From: Nitrospira moscoviensis
GTDB lineage: Bacteria; Nitrospirota; Nitrospiria; Nitrospirales; Nitrospiraceae
Length of the DNA: 64,000 nt
NCBI RefSeq assembly: GCF_001273775.1
Contig: NZ_CP011801.1
Location: forward strand, 620,001 to 684,000
Direction of reading: 5' to 3'
The notes under the pieces were generated by a model, which did no database searches, was not told the origin of the DNA, and saw only the letters and a list, made by a program, of their open reading frames with translations. A program made the position numbers and the translations under genes. This document shows positions 1,204 through 49,513 of the stretch, piece by piece; position 1 is the first letter of the stretch, and each line of letters begins with the position of its first letter.

Positions 1204-1494
1204 ATGCGGAGACCGAAACTCAGCACCCTATCCAAGTCATTCGATGCGTTGTTGGCGGAAAAACGATCGCTGACGGAGAAGGAGCAGAGCTTGATCGTGC
1301 GGCTGAACAAGGTGCTTTCGCAGCTCGGCTATCGCGTGGAACGAAACACGCCGGCGCGGGCCGCCGCCTCCCGGAGACCGCGGCGGCGGGTGGATTCGCA
1401 CGGCCAGCGCGTCGCGCTGAAATCGGCCGGTCATTCCAATGCGAACCAGGGCCCCCAGCGCCGCGGTCGTCCGCCGCTCAGAACAGTGGCTTGA
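1204..1494 (+). CDS. Small basic protein of unknown function
   Basis: This 96-aa protein begins at an ATG preceded by AGGAGCGGGAGTC, a good ribosome binding site. The first 45 residues look alpha-helical (LSKSFDALLAEKRSLTEKEQ). The rest is rich in Arg, Ala and Pro, with clusters such as RRPRRRV, as in nucleic-acid-binding tails. I do not recognise a family. It stands alone between the divergent ImuB-like gene and the rpsF operon. Its reality rests on the ribosome binding site and the lack of any competing gene on the opposite strand. Confidence 0.6.
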   Translation: MRRPKLSTLSKSFDALLAEKRSLTEKEQSLIVRLNKVLSQLGYRVERNTPARAAASRRPRRRVDSHGQRVALKSAGHSNANQGPQRRGRPPLRTVA

Positions 1495-1530
1495 CCATTC
1501 GGCGCGAAGGACTTCTCGCCTCCGCCGCGA

Positions 1531-1558
1531 TTGACAGGGTGAGAAATCCTGTGATACC
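1531..1558 (+). promoter_or_regulatory. Promoter of rpsF operon
   Basis: TTGACA (1531-1536), 16 nt, then GATACC (1553-1558). The -35 is perfect and the -10 weak (3 of 6). It predicts a leader of roughly 75 nt before rpsF. Confidence 0.45.
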
Positions 1559-1572
1559 GTCCACCGTTCGTT

Positions 1573-1618
1573 GCGCCTGATGAGGCGCCCTACACCTCGC
1601 TCCCGACCGGTTCGGGGG
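1573..1618 (+). promoter_or_regulatory. Structured rpsF leader, candidate S6:S18 autoregulatory site
   Basis: Two hairpins sit in the leader: GCGCCT-GATG-AGGCGC (1573-1588) and CCCGA-CCGGT-TCGGG (1602-1616). The second exposes CCG and GGT. Many bacteria carry a leader before rpsF-rpsR that binds the S6:S18 dimer through a CCG element. The match here is by general shape only, so this is a candidate. Confidence 0.3.
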
Positions 1619-1641
1619 CCTTTGTCCAGGAGGATCGCTGC

Positions 1642-1989
1642 ATGGAGCTCTACGAGTCTCTGTTTATTATTCGTCCGTCCGTCTCCGACGAGGAGACCGC
1701 CGCGCTCATCGAAAAAATGAAAGGCGTGGCCGACAAGACGGGCGCGCAGTTCATCAAGTCCGAAAACTGGGGCCGCAAAAAACTCGCGTATGAAGTGAGG
1801 CGGGAACGGAAAGGCACTTACGCGTATTTCTATTTCCGGGCGCCCAACAACACCGTCGGCGAATTGGAGCGAGCGTACCGTCTGGAAGACAACATCATCA
1901 AGTTCCTGACGATCCATCTCGAAAAGGAACTGGTGCCGCGACGGCCGGCGGAAGCCTCGGCGCAGGAGGCGGACGGTGGCCGGGTTTAA
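1642..1989 (+). CDS. rpsF: 30S ribosomal protein S6
   Basis: A 115-aa protein of the S6 family, which binds the central domain of 16S rRNA together with S18. It starts MELYESLFIIRPSVSDEE and contains the typical ENWGRKKLAYEVRRERKGTY segment (about residues 41-60). The start follows a strong AGGAGG at 1629-1634. The acidic, Ala-rich tail (residues 100-115) is usual. The last 14 nt overlap the start of ssb, so the two are probably translationally coupled. It is first in an rpsF-ssb-rpsR operon. Confidence 0.97.
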   Translation: MELYESLFIIRPSVSDEETAALIEKMKGVADKTGAQFIKSENWGRKKLAYEVRRERKGTYAYFYFRAPNNTVGELERAYRLEDNIIKFLTIHLEKELVPRRPAEASAQEADGGRV

Positions 1990-2386
1990 CAAAGTCATCC
2001 TCATCGGCAATCTCACCCGCAATCCCGAACTGCGGTACACGCCCAGCGGCACGCCGGTGGCGAGCTTCGGCCTGGCGGTGAGCCGGCGGTTCAAGCAGGG
2101 GGATGAGCTGAAGGAAGAGGTCTGCTTCGTCGACATCGTGGTGTTCGGCAAGCAGGCCGAGCACTGCGGGCAATATTTGAGTAAAGGGAACGGGGCGATC
2201 ATCGAAGGCCGGCTGCAGCAGCGCCGGTGGGAGACGGAAGACGGACAGAAGCGCAGCAAACACGAAGTCGTGGCGCAGACGGTGACGTTCATGCCGAAAC
2301 GCCAGGAGGGGGGCGGCGGCGCCGTCGGCGCGGGGGACGCGCCGATTCCCGAGGAGCCCACGTATGAGTATGAGGACCATGGCTAG
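1976..2386 (+). CDS. ssb: Single-stranded DNA-binding protein
   Basis: A 136-aa SSB with an N-terminal OB fold: FNKVILIGNLTRNPELRYTP (residues 4-23), then the VASFGLAVSRRF strand and a long basic hairpin. SSB coats single-stranded DNA in replication, recombination and repair. The GTG at 1976 is inside the end of rpsF; no later start preserves the conserved first strand. The C-terminal tail is short, acidic and ends EYEDHG, unlike the common DDDIPF tip. Partner binding through that tip may therefore be altered or carried by another SSB. Confidence 0.93.
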   Translation: MAGFNKVILIGNLTRNPELRYTPSGTPVASFGLAVSRRFKQGDELKEEVCFVDIVVFGKQAEHCGQYLSKGNGAIIEGRLQQRRWETEDGQKRSKHEVVAQTVTFMPKRQEGGGGAVGAGDAPIPEEPTYEYEDHG

Positions 2387-2407
2387 CGCGACAGCAAGGA
2401 GGCAGTG

Positions 2408-2650
2408 ATGGAACGAGGAGAAGGCGGTGGCGGACGGTTGTTTCAGCGCAGACGTCCCTGCCGGTTTTGCCTGGACAAGGTGCCGATCGATTTCAAGGAC
2501 GCCGGATTGCTCCGGAACTTTCTGACGGAGCGGGGCCGGATCGTTCCGCGCCGGATCTCGGGAAACTGCATGGGCCATCAACGCGAGCTGACGGTGGCGA
2601 TCAAGCGGGCGCGGCACATCGCCTTGATCAGCTTCGCCGAAGAACGATAA
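2408..2650 (+). CDS. rpsR: 30S ribosomal protein S18
   Basis: An 80-aa S18 with a Cys pair near the N-terminus (CRFC, about residues 18-21) and the conserved [31 protein letters not shown] core. It pairs with S6 on the small-subunit platform. ATG 2408 is chosen because AAGGAGG (2396-2402) sits 5 nt upstream; an in-frame GTG one codon earlier would be too close. The rplI gene, which usually follows in rpsF-rpsR operons, is not here; yceD comes next. Confidence 0.96.
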
Positions 2651-6880: not shown

Positions 6881-7624
6881 ATGTCATTACACGGTAAAGT
6901 CGCCATCGTCACCGGAGCGGCGCAGGGGATCGGGCGGGCGATCGCGGAAAGCCTGGCCCAGGCGGGCGCCGATGTGGCGGTGGCGGATCTCGATCCCGGC
7001 CGGTCCAGCGAGACGGTGAAGGCGATCGAGGCGCTGGGGCGGAACGCGTTGAACGTCAAAGTGAACGTCGCCGACGCGAACGACACCAAAGCCATGGTGG
7101 AGCAGGTGCTGAAGGCCTGGGGCAAGGTCGATATCCTGGTCAACAACGCGGGCATCACGCGCGACGGCTTGCTGCTGCGGATGAAGGAAGAAGATTGGAA
7201 TCTCGTGTTGCAAGTCAATCTCAACGGCACATTCAACTGCACCAAGGCCGCCTTGCAGCCGATGACGAAGCAGCGGTATGGTCGTATTGTGAACATTGCG
7301 TCGGTCGTCGGCGTCATGGGCAACGCGGGCCAAGCCAACTATGCGGCGTCCAAAGCGGCGGTGATCGGCTTTACCAAGACCGTGGGACGGGAGTATGCCA
7401 GCCGCAACATCACGGTGAACGCCGTCGCGCCGGGCTTCATCGACACGGCCATGACGCACGGGCTCTCAGCCGAGGTGAAAGAGACGTTGCAGAAACAGAT
7501 TCCCATGGGCCGGCTGGGCACGCCGGCGGATATCGCCGCCGCCGTGCGGTTTCTGGTGTCCGAGGACGCGGCCTATATCACGGGCCATGTGCTCCACGTG
7601 AACGGCGGCATGCTGATGGTGTAG
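6881..7624 (+). CDS. fabG: 3-oxoacyl-ACP reductase (FabG)
   Basis: A 247-aa short-chain dehydrogenase that reduces 3-oxoacyl-ACP with NADPH. It has the [12 protein letters not shown] nucleotide-binding motif (about residues 11-22), NNAGITRDG, the catalytic Ser in NIASVVG, and Tyr/Lys in NYAASKAA. The C-terminus [12 protein letters not shown] is typical. A purine-rich GAGG precedes the start. It is followed by acpP and fabF. Confidence 0.97.
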
Positions 7625-7710
7625 CAGGGCTACAGGAAACGAAGGGCTGTGGCAGATCCCCCTGTTACGGCGCGCAGGATATCCATGTGGGGAAGGAGGT
7701 AGGCAGATCG

Positions 7711-7944
7711 ATGGCAACAGTGGAAGAGCGGGTCAAGAAGATCATCGCCGAACAACTCGGTGTGGAAGAGGATGAGGTGACGCCCGAGGCCTCCTTCGTG
7801 GAAGACCTCGGCGCCGATTCGCTCGACACCGTCGAGTTGGTGATGGCGCTCGAAGAAGAATTCGAGATCGAGATTCCCGACGAGGATGCGGAAAAGATCC
7901 TCACGGTCGGGAAGGCCATGGACTACATCAAGGAAAAGTCTTAA
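7711..7944 (+). CDS. acpP: Acyl carrier protein
   Basis: A 77-aa acidic four-helix protein carrying acyl chains on 4'-phosphopantetheine. The attachment residue is Ser37 in [15 protein letters not shown]. The frame is open upstream through fabG, but the true ATG is at 7711, after a strong AAGGAGGT at 7693-7700. That strong site fits the large amounts of ACP cells need. It lies between fabG and fabF, the standard position. Confidence 0.98.
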
Positions 7945-7959
7945 GCCCTCGGACTTCGC

Positions 7960-9210
7960 ATGACCGATCGCAGCACACGACGGATCGTCGTGACCGGTCT
8001 GGGACTGGTCACTCCGCTCGGCACGGGTGTCGACAAAACCTGGACGGCGCTGTGCGCCGGGGAATCGGGCATCGGCCGGATCACGCGGTTCGACCCGACC
8101 GGGTACGATGCGCAAATCGCCGGCGAGGTGAAGGACTTCGATCCCGCCCGGTTCATCGAGAAGAAAGAAATCAAGAAGATGGATACGTTCATCCACTATG
8201 CCGTGGGCGCCGCCCAGATGGCCGTGGATGACGCCGGTCTGAAAGTGACGCCGGACGAAGCCCCGAAGGTCGGCGTCTATATCGGCTCCGGCATCGGGGG
8301 GCTCGGATCCATCGAGCATTACCATGACGTGCTCAAGGACAAGGGACCGGGGCGCGTGTCCCCCTTCTTCATTCCCATGACGATCATCAATTTGGCCTCC
8401 GGGCAAGTGGCGATCCGGATCGGGGCCAAGGGACCGAATTCCTGCGCCGTCACGGCCTGCGCGACGGGCAACCATTGCATCGGCGACGCGTTCCGTCTGA
8501 TCCAACACGGCGATGCGGACGTGATGGTGGCGGGGGGCGCCGAGGCGGCGGTGACGCCGCTCGGGGTGGCGGGATTTGCTGCCGCGAAAGCCTTATCGTT
8601 CCGGAACGACGAGCCGGCGAGGGCCAGCCGGCCGTTTGACCGCGACCGGGACGGATTCGTTCTGGGGGAGGGAGCCGGCGTCGTGGTCTTGGAAGAACTG
8701 GAGCATGCGCGCCGCCGCGGCGCCAGGATCTACGCCGAGCTGATCGGGTACGGCATGAACAGCGACGCCTACCACATTACCGCGCCGCCCGAAGAAGGCG
8801 AAGGCGCAGTGCGCTGCATGGAGCTGGCGCTGAAAGACGCCGCCATCGGCAAAGACCAGATCGGCTACATCAACGCACATGGCACCTCGACCATGGCCGA
8901 TGCAATTGAAACCCGCGCGATCAAGACCGTGTTCGGGGAGCAGGCCTATCGCATCCCGGTCAGCTCGACCAAGTCGATGACCGGTCACCTGCTCGGTGCG
9001 GCTGGCGGCATCGAAGCGATCTTCAGCGTCCTGGCGCTCTATCACGGCATCCTCCCGCCGACGATCAATCTTGAACAGGCGGACCCCGCCTGCGATCTGG
9101 ATTACGTGCCCAATAAGGCCCGCGCGGCGGCCGTTCGCGCAGCCCTGTCCAACTCCTTCGGATTCGGCGGCGTCAACGCCTGCCTGATCTTCCGACGCGC
9201 GGATGCCTAG
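7960..9210 (+). CDS. fabF: 3-oxoacyl-ACP synthase II (FabF)
   Basis: A 416-aa KAS II that elongates acyl-ACP with malonyl-ACP. Active-site Cys167 lies in [11 protein letters not shown]. The two His residues are in [11 protein letters not shown] and [13 protein letters not shown]. The C-terminus has the usual [15 protein letters not shown]. The start is 15 nt after acpP, so the two are probably co-translated. The 3' end overlaps the rnc start by 8 nt. Confidence 0.97.
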
Positions 9211-44410: not shown

Positions 44411-45376
44411 TTATACCGAGATGCCCCAGAGCTGTTTGGCCAGGAGCCCGATCGCATAGGTGACGGTGACAGCGATGGCGATGATGACCAGATTCAACGT
44501 GATCCGGCGTTGGACGTCCATACCGGATAGAAACGAGAGAATCGTCGAGACGACGATGACCATGAATCCGGCCGTGAGGACTGAAAATAACGGGTCATCG
44601 GCTCCAAACAACACCGGCAGCACCGGCACGACGGCGCCGGCCAGATACGCGGAACCAACCACGAGGGCCGACGAGAGGGGTTGTTCTTCCATCGGGCTTG
44701 ATTCGCTCTCTTCCTCGAGAAAAATTCGCTTGGCGACCTCGGTCGATTTCACTTCCTTCTCCGAATTCAATGCCAGGAACGCGCCAGCCCCCATGGACAG
44801 CGCGCCGGCCACGGCGGTGGTCGAGGCGGCGATGAGGACCGTGGTGGTACTGCCGAAGGCGCCGAAAAATCCGCTGACGGCTCCGAGAATCTCCACCAGA
44901 CCGTCGTTCAGACCCAGAAAGATGTTCCGAATCTTCTCCGCGTTGATCTTCCGCTGCGTCAGCGCCGTGACCAGCACGTCCTCGTGTTTGAATTCGTCCA
45001 TCAAAATGCCGCGCAACGCTTCCCCGAGCGGCTGGCGCTGATACTCCTTCCACAACGCCAGATACTTGCGGACACCGTGCACTTCGATCGCCTCCAGTAC
45101 AAGGTGGATCCCTGTAGTGCCCAAGAGCCGGCAGGCGAGGAGCATGATCTGAAGCTTCAGGCGGCGACCCCAATCGAGCCGCTCCAGCTTGTAACCGAAG
45201 AACTTCTGCCAAAACGCGAGATGTTGGGTTTCGACTGTAATCAGCTCGTTGAGCGTCGCCTTGGACTCATCATCGCCGGAAATACCATGCAGAGCCCTGT
45301 ACAACGAAAGGTCGAACAGTTCGTCCAGAATCAAGGCGCGGGCTAATGAGGCGTCGTATTGGTAGGATGCCGCCAT
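44411..45376 (-). CDS. mbfA: Ferritin-like/VIT1 membrane iron transporter (MbfA type)
   Basis: About 321 aa. The N-terminal half is a ferritin-like four-helix domain with ExxH-type ligands (ALILDELFDLSLYRAL, ITVETQHLAFW, ILMDEFKHEDVLV). The C-terminal half is a VIT1/CCC1 transporter with LGLNDGLVEILGAVSGFFGA and three to four further membrane helices. MbfA proteins export iron and bind it at the soluble domain. An organism rich in haem and Fe-S enzymes would need it. ATG 45376 is preferred; 45400 is possible. Confidence 0.88.
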   Translation of the reverse strand: MAASYQYDASLARALILDELFDLSLYRALHGISGDDESKATLNELITVETQHLAFWQKFFGYKLERLDWGRRLKLQIMLLACRLLGTTGIHLVLEAIEVHGVRKYLALWKEYQRQPLGEALRGILMDEFKHEDVLVTALTQRKINAEKIRNIFLGLNDGLVEILGAVSGFFGAFGSTTTVLIAASTTAVAGALSMGAGAFLALNSEKEVKSTEVAKRIFLEEESESSPMEEQPLSSALVVGSAYLAGAVVPVLPVLFGADDPLFSVLTAGFMVIVVSTILSFLSGMDVQRRITLNLVIIAIAVTVTYAIGLLAKQLWGISV

Positions 45377-45453
45377 CGACTGCTCGTGAAGGGCGCACAA
45401 TATCGTCGACGAGCCGGGCTCGTCAGGGCTTCAACGACCGATCACCGCCGGGA

Positions 45454-45579
45454 TCAGCCGAGTACGAAATACACGCTCAGGCCGACCGCTGCGAGCAAGG
45501 CGACGCCGAACATCACCTTCTCATGTCCGCATAGGCCTTCCTGCGCCTTGCAGGCGGCGAGCGAGCACATTACCGACAT
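45454..45579 (-). CDS. 41-aa Cys-containing single-span membrane protein
   Basis: A tiny protein, MSVMCSLAACKAQEGLCGHEK followed by one membrane helix (MFGVALLAAVGLSVYFVL). Three Cys and a His in the first 19 residues could bind a metal or haem. AGAGGAGGAG lies 6 nt upstream of the ATG, a strong signal that it is real. It lies between the IDO-like gene and mbfA on the same strand. No family recognised. Confidence 0.65.
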   Translation of the reverse strand: MSVMCSLAACKAQEGLCGHEKVMFGVALLAAVGLSVYFVLG

Positions 45580-45666: not shown

Positions 45667-46875
45667 TCAATCTTGCTGTGAAAGCATCTGTCTCGTTTCA
45701 TCCAAGTGCTTCTGTAGGTAGACCATGAACGGCGTGCCGCCGGTGCCGACCGCCGTCGGGTTGCTCGTATGGGTCTGATGCTGGCGGTGGATGTAGCTGT
45801 CCGCGTAGCCGATGTGGATTTCGCGGAACTGGGCCAACAAGTCGACGCACGCGCCATAGGCGGTCCAAAGCTCGGGGCGGTGGGACTTGCGGTCACGGAC
45901 ATAGCCGGAGAGCAACGGCCGGCCACGGTCATCGATCTGGCTCTCTAAGGCATGGAGAAACGCGCGGTGGCGCGGCGGCATGTACTCCCGCATCTCCTGC
46001 AGATAGACGGTCAAGGGATCGGGCGCGTGACTGATGCCGAGCCCTGCGTCGAGGCAGGGCACGATGGAGCTTTGTGCGCCGGTTTCGCCACGGAACTGCC
46101 GAGGTTGTCCGCCATGGGCGGCGACGCCTTCGTAGGTCAGGCCGTTGGGCAGCGACGGATTATTCTTCCAGCCATGGATGTACGGCCTCACCCGGGTGTA
46201 GTAGACATAGGGGTCGCAGCGTTCTTTCATGCGCCGCAATGTGTCGCGCATGGCGGCTTGAGCGGCAGCCAAGGCCTGCAAACCCTGCACAACCTCGTCG
46301 TCCTTCCCTTCCATCGCTCCGTTCATGGCCCGCCGTAAGCCTGCCAGACCGGGCCCCGCTTGCCGTTCGATCTGAATGTGAACCACGACGAACCACTCTT
46401 CGTCGAGTCCGCCGAGGAAGTTCTGCAGCAGGACGATGTTGTCGAGCTGAACCGGCTTGGTTCGATCGAGGCGACGCCAATTGTCGAGCGCATAAGAGGC
46501 GTAGGAGAGCACCGGCGGCCGGCCAAGCCGCTGTGCCACCTCATACCAGGGTCGCGCCAACTGCGGCGGCAGCGTGACGGCCGGTTGCTCCGGCACCTCC
46601 CACACATACGCATGGCCGGCGAACGACAAAATCCGCATCGCTGCGCGATAATCCTCATCTCGCCAGTCGCTTGGAACGGAAGGCAAGAGCGAGCGCTGCT
46701 CGTCGATGAACCGCCGGACCATGCGAGCGCTCAACAACTTCGGCAACTCGCGGCCCAACTGGTTCAGCGTGTCGCAGTCAGGGAGATGATCGCAAGGGTC
46801 CGGCGGAAGGAACCCGCGGTCGGGAGAAATGTCGTAATCGGCGAGCGACAGAGAATGGAAGGTGATCGATCTCAC
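45667..46875 (-). CDS. Indoleamine 2,3-dioxygenase-like haem protein
   Basis: A 402-aa protein of the IDO superfamily. The proximal haem His is His354 in FREIHIGYADSYI, followed by NPTAVGTGGTPFMVYL, the family signature. The N-terminal half is helical (LSFAGHAYVWEVP, FVVVHIQIERQAGPGL). The GTG at 46875 is chosen because GGAGG lies 5 nt upstream. Eukaryotic relatives open the indole ring of tryptophan; bacterial members include other oxygenases. No kynurenine-pathway gene is near, so the substrate is open. Confidence 0.82.
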   Translation of the reverse strand: MRSITFHSLSLADYDISPDRGFLPPDPCDHLPDCDTLNQLGRELPKLLSARMVRRFIDEQRSLLPSVPSDWRDEDYRAAMRILSFAGHAYVWEVPEQPAVTLPPQLARPWYEVAQRLGRPPVLSYASYALDNWRRLDRTKPVQLDNIVLLQNFLGGLDEEWFVVVHIQIERQAGPGLAGLRRAMNGAMEGKDDEVVQGLQALAAAQAAMRDTLRRMKERCDPYVYYTRVRPYIHGWKNNPSLPNGLTYEGVAAHGGQPRQFRGETGAQSSIVPCLDAGLGISHAPDPLTVYLQEMREYMPPRHRAFLHALESQIDDRGRPLLSGYVRDRKSHRPELWTAYGACVDLLAQFREIHIGYADSYIHRQHQTHTSNPTAVGTGGTPFMVYLQKHLDETRQMLSQQD

Positions 46876-46953
46876 AGGAGCCTCCGGTATGAGCAACCCG
46901 GGCGCCTGTCGTTACTGTACCACTCCTCAGCTAGATTTCAATCGAACCTTCTT

Positions 46954-46982
46954 GGAAAGGCCGCTCAATAGCCGGCCTTTCC
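46954..46982. terminator. Hairpin between ahcY and the IDO-like gene
   Basis: GGAAAGGCCG (46954-46963) pairs perfectly with CGGCCTTTCC (46973-46982), loop 9 nt. The T-tract is poor on the minus strand, so it may be a weak end for ahcY. Confidence 0.55.
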
Positions 46983-47003: not shown

Positions 47004-48344
<1,341 letters not shown>

Positions 48345-48364: not shown

Positions 48365-49513
48365 TTACAGGCCTGCGTCTTTGCGCAACGCTCTCACCTT
48401 GTCGGTCTTTTCCCAGGTGAACTCCGGCTCGTTGCGCCCGAAGTGCCCGTACGCGGCCGTCTTGCGGAAAATCGGCCGGCGGAGCTTGAGATGCTCGATG
48501 ATGCCGCGCGGCGTCATCGGGAAATGTTTGCGGACCAGCTTGTCGAGGTTGTCCACCGATACCTTCTCGGTGTTCTTGGTATCGACGAGCACGGAGACCG
48601 GATCGGCCACACCGATCGCATAGGCCAACTGTACCTCGCACTTATCCGCCAAGCCGGCGGCGACGATGTTCTTCGCGATATAGCGGGCCATGTACGACGC
48701 CGAACGGTCCACCTTCGTGGGATCCTTGCCCGAGAAGGCGCCGCCGCCATGGCTGCCGTGGCCGCCGTAGGTGTCCACGATGATCTTGCGGCCGGTGAGC
48801 CCGGTATCCCCCATCGGCCCGCCCACGACAAAGCGGCCGGTCGGGTTGATGTGGTGCTTCACGCCGGTCGGATCGTAAAGGCCCTTCGGCATGACGGGCT
48901 TGATCACCTGCTCCATGATGCCGCGCTCGATTTCCCGATTGGTGACGTCGGGGCTATGTTGCGTCGAGACGACGATGGTGTCGATGCGGAACGGTTTGCC
49001 GTTCTTGTATTCGACGGTAACTTGGGACTTGCCATCCGGTCGCACCCAAGGAAGGATTTTCCTCTTGCGGACTTCGGCCAGCCGGCGCGTCAGACGGTGA
49101 GCCAGCACGATGGGCATGGGCATCAGCTCGGCGGTCTCGTTGGTGGCATAGCCGAACATCAGCCCCTGGTCGCCGGCACCTCCCGAGTCGACCCCCATGG
49201 CGATATCGCCCGACTGCTGGTGAATCGAGGTCAGGACGGAGCAGGTATGGTAGTCAAATCCCCACGAGGCGTCGCAGTAGCCGACGTCTTTGATCACGTC
49301 CCGGATGATGTCGGGGATTTCCACATAGGCCTTGGTGGAGATTTCCCCCGCCACGAAGGCGATCCCGGTGGTGAGGATCGTTTCACAGGCGACGCGGGAG
49401 AACTTATCCTGCGCGATAATGGCGTCCAATATGCCGTCCGAGATCTGGTCCGCAATCTTGTCCGGATGGCCTTCGGTAACGGACTCGGAGGTAAACAGAT
49501 AGTTGTTTCTCAT
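48365..49513 (-). CDS. metK: S-adenosylmethionine synthetase
   Basis: A 382-aa enzyme making SAM from methionine and ATP. It shows [20 protein letters not shown] (residues 7-26), [15 protein letters not shown] and [19 protein letters not shown], all with the metal and phosphate ligands in place. GGGAGCGAGAGCGGGA precedes the ATG. The leader carries a GACCGG...CCGGTC hairpin (49565-49585). No known SAM riboswitch was recognised. Confidence 0.97.

Follow-up and report, generated by a model that had tools for sequence, protein, structure and literature searches.

Indoleamine dioxygenase (IDO) is best known as an immune enzyme of animals, and the locus described here raises the question of what such a protein does in Nitrospira moscoviensis, whose family, the Nitrospiraceae, are nitrite oxidisers. 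The window, that is, the whole 64,000-nucleotide stretch that was analysed (positions 620,001 to 684,000 of contig NZ_CP011801.1), carries the gene on its minus strand at 45667..46875. We read the gene from the GTG at 46875, which gives a protein of 402 aa, whereas the mechanical ORF list begins at the TTG at 46896. Direct reading placed a Shine-Dalgarno-like GGAGG (46881..46885, minus) before this GTG. A consensus scan of the IDO region for promoters returned 3 sites against 0.3 expected, and the promoter-like TTGAAA-16-TACAGT at 46914..46941 (minus) is taken as weak evidence only. The gap between ahcY and the IDO gene also holds a perfect 10-bp inverted repeat, GGAAAGGCCG / CGGCCTTTCC, with a 9-base loop (46954..46982, direct reading). 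The repeat is terminator-like, without a clear T run, and is absent from the list of our terminator-like site scan, in which loops are limited to 8 bases.

The identity of the protein was assessed with Pfam, PDB alignments, conservation and residue tables, AlphaFold and Foldseek. The protein matched PF01231 at 3e-90 with 303 bits (cut-off 26) over profile positions 2-411 of 412, and a Pfam scan at E up to 1 gave no family besides IDO. A phmmer search of the PDB returned 25 distinct sequences, every one IDO1 or IDO2. The AlphaFold model, built with 34 sequences, reached a pLDDT of 90.6 and a pTM of 0.90, with its lowest confidence at residues 373-381, the loop before and into GTGGT, and among the Foldseek matches listed for this model 50/50 were IDO1 or IDO2 (TMq 0.84-0.89). 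TDO (PF03301), MarE and PrnB share haem indole oxygenase chemistry with IDO, and published abstracts, the part of those sources relied on here, describe MarE as TDO-like and report a structural similarity of PrnB to both IDO and TDO. The Pfam match of the window protein was nevertheless to IDO alone, so that kinship with these families is not supported. These results agree with the sequence-only reading, which had called the protein IDO-like, and indicate that, as judged from sequence and predicted structure, it is a true full-length bacterial IDO of a type that is known but little understood.

We then compared the protein with 78 relatives, giving 79 rows (of 80 loci, L099 and L145 were dropped, having no ORF with both search motifs). 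The alignment was anchored on the human IDO1 S167H mutant (6cxu), in which the engineered His matches the natural His of the window protein. The results showed that the proximal haem ligand, IDO1 His346, corresponds to H354 and the IDO1 Ser167 position to H166, and both positions were His in 79/79 rows. R230 and residues 377-381 aligned with Arg231 and the GTGGT loop of IDO1 and IDO2. These residues (the GTGGTPF motif at 377-384 reads GTGGTPFM in the window) were also invariant over the 79 rows, partly through row selection, because the motifs used to collect the rows contain them. A further 11 rows, obtained by another way from plasmids and phylum samples, also kept the Arg and GTGGT, although a loose GTGG motif had again guided the choice of 7/11. 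The proximal-His segment and the GTGGTPFM motif, earlier described as clear, were both present, at H354 and at 377-384.

The window protein resembles vertebrate IDO1 and IDO2 in predicted fold, length, proximal His, Arg231 and GTGGT loop, at identities of 30% (human IDO1 chain) and 36% (mouse IDO2 chain), but differs from them in the pocket. The window-type pocket has His at 167 (H166), Tyr at 226 and Thr-Gly at 263-264, whereas the vertebrate rows, together with two actinobacterial rows, have Ser/Thr at 167, Phe226 and Ser263-Ala264. In a tree of 47 rows, the vertebrate and two actinobacterial rows formed one side (support 100/99), the 12 Nitrospirota rows formed one clade (100/100), and other bacteria, haloarchaea and Methylocystis fell on the His side; the Methylocystis, two haloarchaeal, one actinobacterial and human rows are long branches whose placement is unsure. 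The His, Tyr and Thr-Gly pocket and the separate clade (100/99) place the window protein outside the vertebrate branch.

The pocket His is common to the window protein and to the IDOs of Fimbriimonadales, Chloroflexota, Myxococcota, Sphingobium, Haladaptatus and Methylocystis, hereafter His-type IDOs. Bacterial His-type rows were 40-55% identical to the window protein, and the Methylocystis and haloarchaeal plasmid matches 33-38%. In the tree, the plasmid IDO of Methylocystis heyeri (L169:6929-8005) has a very long branch; upstream of its gene lie aminotransferase and cystathionine gamma-synthase-family genes. Sphingobium, whose IDO is His-type in the residue table, belongs to the same order as Erythrobacter. 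The available portion of PMC4217691 distinguishes three IDO branches, reports useful Trp rates only in the branch with mammals, fungi, Gemmatimonas and Streptomyces scabiei, and describes the IDOs of E. litoralis and N. caesariensis as turning over Trp very slowly. The window IDO probably falls with this slow kind. On two haloarchaeal plasmids (L170, L171; Haladaptatus and Natronococcus), genes for a His-type IDO, kynureninase (kynU), an alpha/beta hydrolase and trpB lie close together, which speaks against a strict reading of His-type IDOs as slow on Trp; kynU adjoins the IDO gene in these two cases, unlike in the window.

The host genome (4.59 Mb, single contig) carries one IDO gene, and PF01231 was found in 0/14 control genomes. 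The closest named relatives of the protein came from Nitrospira and other Nitrospirota; IDO was found in 32/59 relatives, with full-length matches within the genus 75-81% identical. Across the Nitrospirota, 65/295 genomes exceeded the PF01231 cut-off. Among the genomes listed, IDO was present in 37/40 of the own genus (one under the cut-off) and in 27/39 of other own-family genera, so that 64/79 genomes of the family matched, remnants included. Two genomes from another family of the same order also carried it, and 209 further genomes beyond those listed gave no IDO match. Elsewhere, 7/398 genomes of Pseudomonadota (the phylum of L147) and 4/346 of Actinomycetota (the phylum of L158) were over the cut-off, and the phage records searched gave no match. 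Among the matches listed in a search of the open-licence literature on indoleamine and Nitrospira, no title concerned a Nitrospira IDO gene. The enzyme family itself is already known.

The neighbouring genes were examined as possible functional partners. The iron transporter and the 41-aa Cys/His membrane protein, reported earlier on the same strand, were recovered as a VIT-family protein, a putative iron/manganese transporter with an N-terminal extension (44411..45400, minus; PF01988, 86 bits), and as a 41-aa Cys/His-rich ORF with one hydrophobic stretch (45454..45579, minus). In the N-part of the VIT-family protein a rubrerythrin-like match reached just E 0.056, below its cut-off, and nothing in Pfam matched the 41-aa ORF at E up to 0.01. 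Relatives of this ORF, with the family sequence MSVMCSLAxCKAQEGMCGHEK..., lay near IDO in 12/58 Nitrospirota loci (one, L123, has a stop). The family also occurs away from IDO and, as tandem copies, in G038, a genome in which no IDO was found; a second, more distant copy lies in the host genome (G000:C1:3927504-3927623). Partnership with IDO is weakened for both proteins. Each accompanies it in some of the 58 Nitrospirota loci but not in the rest, the 41-aa family is present in G038, where IDO was not found, and we regard the two as weak functional leads. On the other side lie ahcY, encoding S-adenosylhomocysteinase (47004..48260, minus; Pfam), and a gene that we take to be metK-like (48365..49513, minus), whose position beside ahcY is conserved. 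In 27/58 Nitrospirota loci ahcY precedes IDO on the same strand; the sequence available upstream is short in several of the loci. The SAM cycle was also rejected as a partner: the metK-ahcY-IDO order holds for just some Nitrospirota loci and for 0/8 loci of other genera or families, and is treated here as synteny. Outside the Nitrospirota, clustering of mechanical ORFs, rather than the output of a gene finder, showed no neighbour family in more than 5/22 loci save ORFs of the IDO gene's own stretch.

We searched the host genome for genes of the kynurenine pathway. Neither kynureninase (TIGR01814) nor TDO gave a match, and no complete classical kynurenine pathway is therefore seen. NadA is present, so that NAD can be made from aspartate. 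PF04199 was not found within the window; elsewhere the genome carries two PF04199 genes of the KynB superfamily, cycA and cycB. The earlier statement that kynurenine genes are lacking thus stands for PF04199 in the window and, genome-wide, for kynureninase and TDO, the genome search for kynureninase being consistent with absent pathway genes. It does not extend to PF04199 in the rest of the genome, and the proposed search for a formamidase gave a divided answer: the two PF04199 proteins reached 80 and 142 bits with the arylformamidase profile, whose cut-off is 223. PF04199 is common, being over the cut-off in 7/14 control genomes, so its presence in the host genome proves little. Kynureninase was over the cut-off in 0/59 relatives, with 15 weaker matches, and the model also gave matches below its cut-off in 8/14 controls.

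A different picture emerged among 22 genomes with a His-type IDO, 20 of them outside the Nitrospirota (the set omits two of the 22 non-Nitrospirota loci, L140 and L143, and draft genomes may be incomplete). Kynureninase was over the cut-off in 5 of these genomes, and no TDO was found in 4 of the 5, the fifth having a partial TDO match. In the four, the His-type IDO is therefore the sole candidate seen for step one. In one of them, the Fimbriimonadia genome G327 (L160), kynureninase is followed by a PF04199-like gene on the same strand. Adjacent TDO-like and kynureninase-like genes were found in four Nitrospira genomes (G001, G012, G018, G031), all with IDO; the two of them that were scanned, G012 and G031, gave scores below the NCBIfam cut-offs for both proteins. 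Since these genomes hold the pair besides IDO, IDO is not the partner of that kynureninase-like gene, and a simple pathway reading is weakened. The two genes overlap by 4 bases at L190:8097-9158 and 6901-8100 (minus) and at L192:552-1409 and 1406-2605 (plus). Near the former pair, L190:2027-3667 (minus) encodes a protein that combines caspase and FGE-sulfatase domains.

The two PF04199 proteins were compared with arylformamidase (TIGR03035) and with PDB entries. cycB (L064:5048-5716, minus) scored 142 bits to arylformamidase along its full length, below the cut-off of 223, and its best PDB match was the metal-dependent hydrolase 1r61 (125 bits), followed by kynurenine formamidase 4cz1 (113 bits). 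cycA (L063:5027-5857) scored 79.9 bits in the host and 82.3 in L113, against the cut-off of 223.05; its PDB relatives were, in order, the uncharacterised cyclase 8f9x, isatin hydrolases and then KynB. Signature residues of KynB and isatin hydrolase were taken from the available parts of PMC4243253 and PMC6117287, and KynB residues were mapped onto cycA through the alignment of cycB to 4cz1. Like KynB, cycA has HxGTHxDxPxH and a further His, Glu and Trp: the metal-site His, His and Asp, the catalytic His and these further residues were kept in 21 rows (20 distinct, L113 being counted twice). The isatin-hydrolase GLQC/GLAS motif was absent from cycA, with FEN in its place in 21 rows (20 distinct), and cycA has the KynB-type Glu that isatin hydrolases replace according to those parts of the two papers. 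Unlike KynB, cycA lies below the KynB cut-off and has a lipoprotein-like N-terminus, a hydrophobic stretch ending in Gly-Cys in 16/16 orthologues displayed, by which it looks like an exported lipoprotein. The IDO protein, unlike cycA, has no lipoprotein-like start.

To describe the relation between IDO and cycA, we counted both genes in 35 genomes of the own genus. IDO was found in 28, a strong cycA match in 24 and both in 22, and whole cycA was absent from 6/28 IDO genomes. The association of presence and absence gave p = 0.02 over the 35 genomes, but in the 26 genomes at least 90% complete co-occurrence was not beyond chance (17/6/2/1, p = 1). As presence and absence were unconvincing, only physical linkage was counted. 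The two genes lay less than 5 kb apart in 14/22 own-genus genomes with both, while in the host genome cycA lies 1.4 Mb from IDO. Among the 80 IDO loci, a long cycA match was found within 2 kb in 18, always on the opposite strand (14 downstream, 4 upstream), with one further fragmentary match; cycA was near IDO in 0/22 non-Nitrospirota loci, some of which have short flanks. Linkage within one genus may reflect shared ancestry. In G011, cycA lies near ahcY without IDO.

Taken together, the IDO most likely acts on Trp, or on an indole close to it, within a route that is cut short. In its specific form, a His-167-type IDO making N-formylkynurenine in a truncated route that stops at kynurenine or a side product, we consider this proposal about evenly poised between right and wrong. 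The His-ligated haem would bind O2, Arg230 and the GTGGT loop would hold the amino-acid carboxylate, and the enzyme would open the indole ring of L-tryptophan, or of a close indole, to give N-formylkynurenine. The formyl group would then be taken off by a PF04199 hydrolase from the KynB superfamily. Haem loading, substrate, product and the PF04199 step are what we infer. Because no kynureninase or TDO was found and NAD can be made from aspartate, the route would halt at kynurenine or a side product and serve Trp or indole turnover, or a side metabolite, rather than NAD formation or full catabolism. A Nitrospira-wide extension, in which a cytoplasmic IDO is paired with an envelope-bound KynB-like lipoprotein that deformylates outside the cytoplasm, kynurenine and formate being an exported product or community cue, is speculative and in our view quite improbable.

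The sequence-only reading had suggested haem or oxygen chemistry other than tryptophan breakdown. Doubt about Trp breakdown stays alive, since the rates reported in the available portion of PMC4217691 are low outside the branch with mammals, fungi, Gemmatimonas and S. scabiei. The PF04199 genes in the genome and the closeness of cycA to IDO in 14/22 own-genus genomes with both make an oxidised product of Trp or indole likelier than general haem chemistry. The same low rates, and a distal pocket unlike that of the vertebrate rows at all three places, would fit an IDO that oxidises a non-Trp indole (indole, indole-3-acetate, a tryptamine-like or a hydroxylated compound), with the linked PF04199 protein opening an isatin-like or cyclic-amide product in a module for indole detoxification or signal quenching. 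Isatin hydrolases are the best PDB relatives of cycA with a named activity, but cycA lacks GLQC/GLAS and has the KynB-type Glu, the carboxylate-holding Arg231 and GTGGT loop are kept in the IDO, and two haloarchaeal His-type IDOs adjoin kynU; we regard this use of another indole as possible but lean clearly against it.

It is unlikely, in our judgement, that the haem serves another job, such as peroxide, superoxide, nitrite or NO chemistry or O2 binding, with Trp turnover incidental. Human IDO1 reacts with nitrite, IDO is common in this family of nitrite oxidisers (64/79 genomes listed) and a VIT transporter lies nearby, and low Trp rates of non-canonical IDOs (PMC4217691, available portion) point the same way. 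The substrate-binding residues are nevertheless kept, and the VIT gene accompanies IDO in just some of the Nitrospirota loci. Relatives are also carried by groups that are not known to us as nitrite oxidisers, Armatimonadota, Chloroflexota and Myxococcota among them. In some genomes the gene is reduced or missing: C-terminal pieces alone are present in G101, G303 and G127, beside ahcY, the gene is split in G025, and none lies beside ahcY in G011. The three remnants adjoining ahcY are at L194, L077 and L195; the PF04199 neighbour in L194 is truncated too, and in G303 IDO and cycA are both truncated, side by side. That the window gene is itself a vestige on its way out is nonetheless very improbable, for it is intact and 64/79 own-family genomes listed carry IDO, remnants included. 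Five close pairs with intact IDO gave dN of 0.13-0.16, dS of 1.0-2.2 and dN/dS of about 0.1 (dS is saturated against N. defluvii), and the IDO is under purifying selection.

Most members of this family of autotrophic nitrifiers retain an IDO, and the genome studied yielded no true kynureninase. Such an enzyme is a clean natural example with which to ask what purpose bacterial IDO serves. The natural His-167 pocket poses the question of whether the enzyme works on tryptophan, and the KynB-like lipoprotein linked to IDO in relatives offers a concrete two-gene test.
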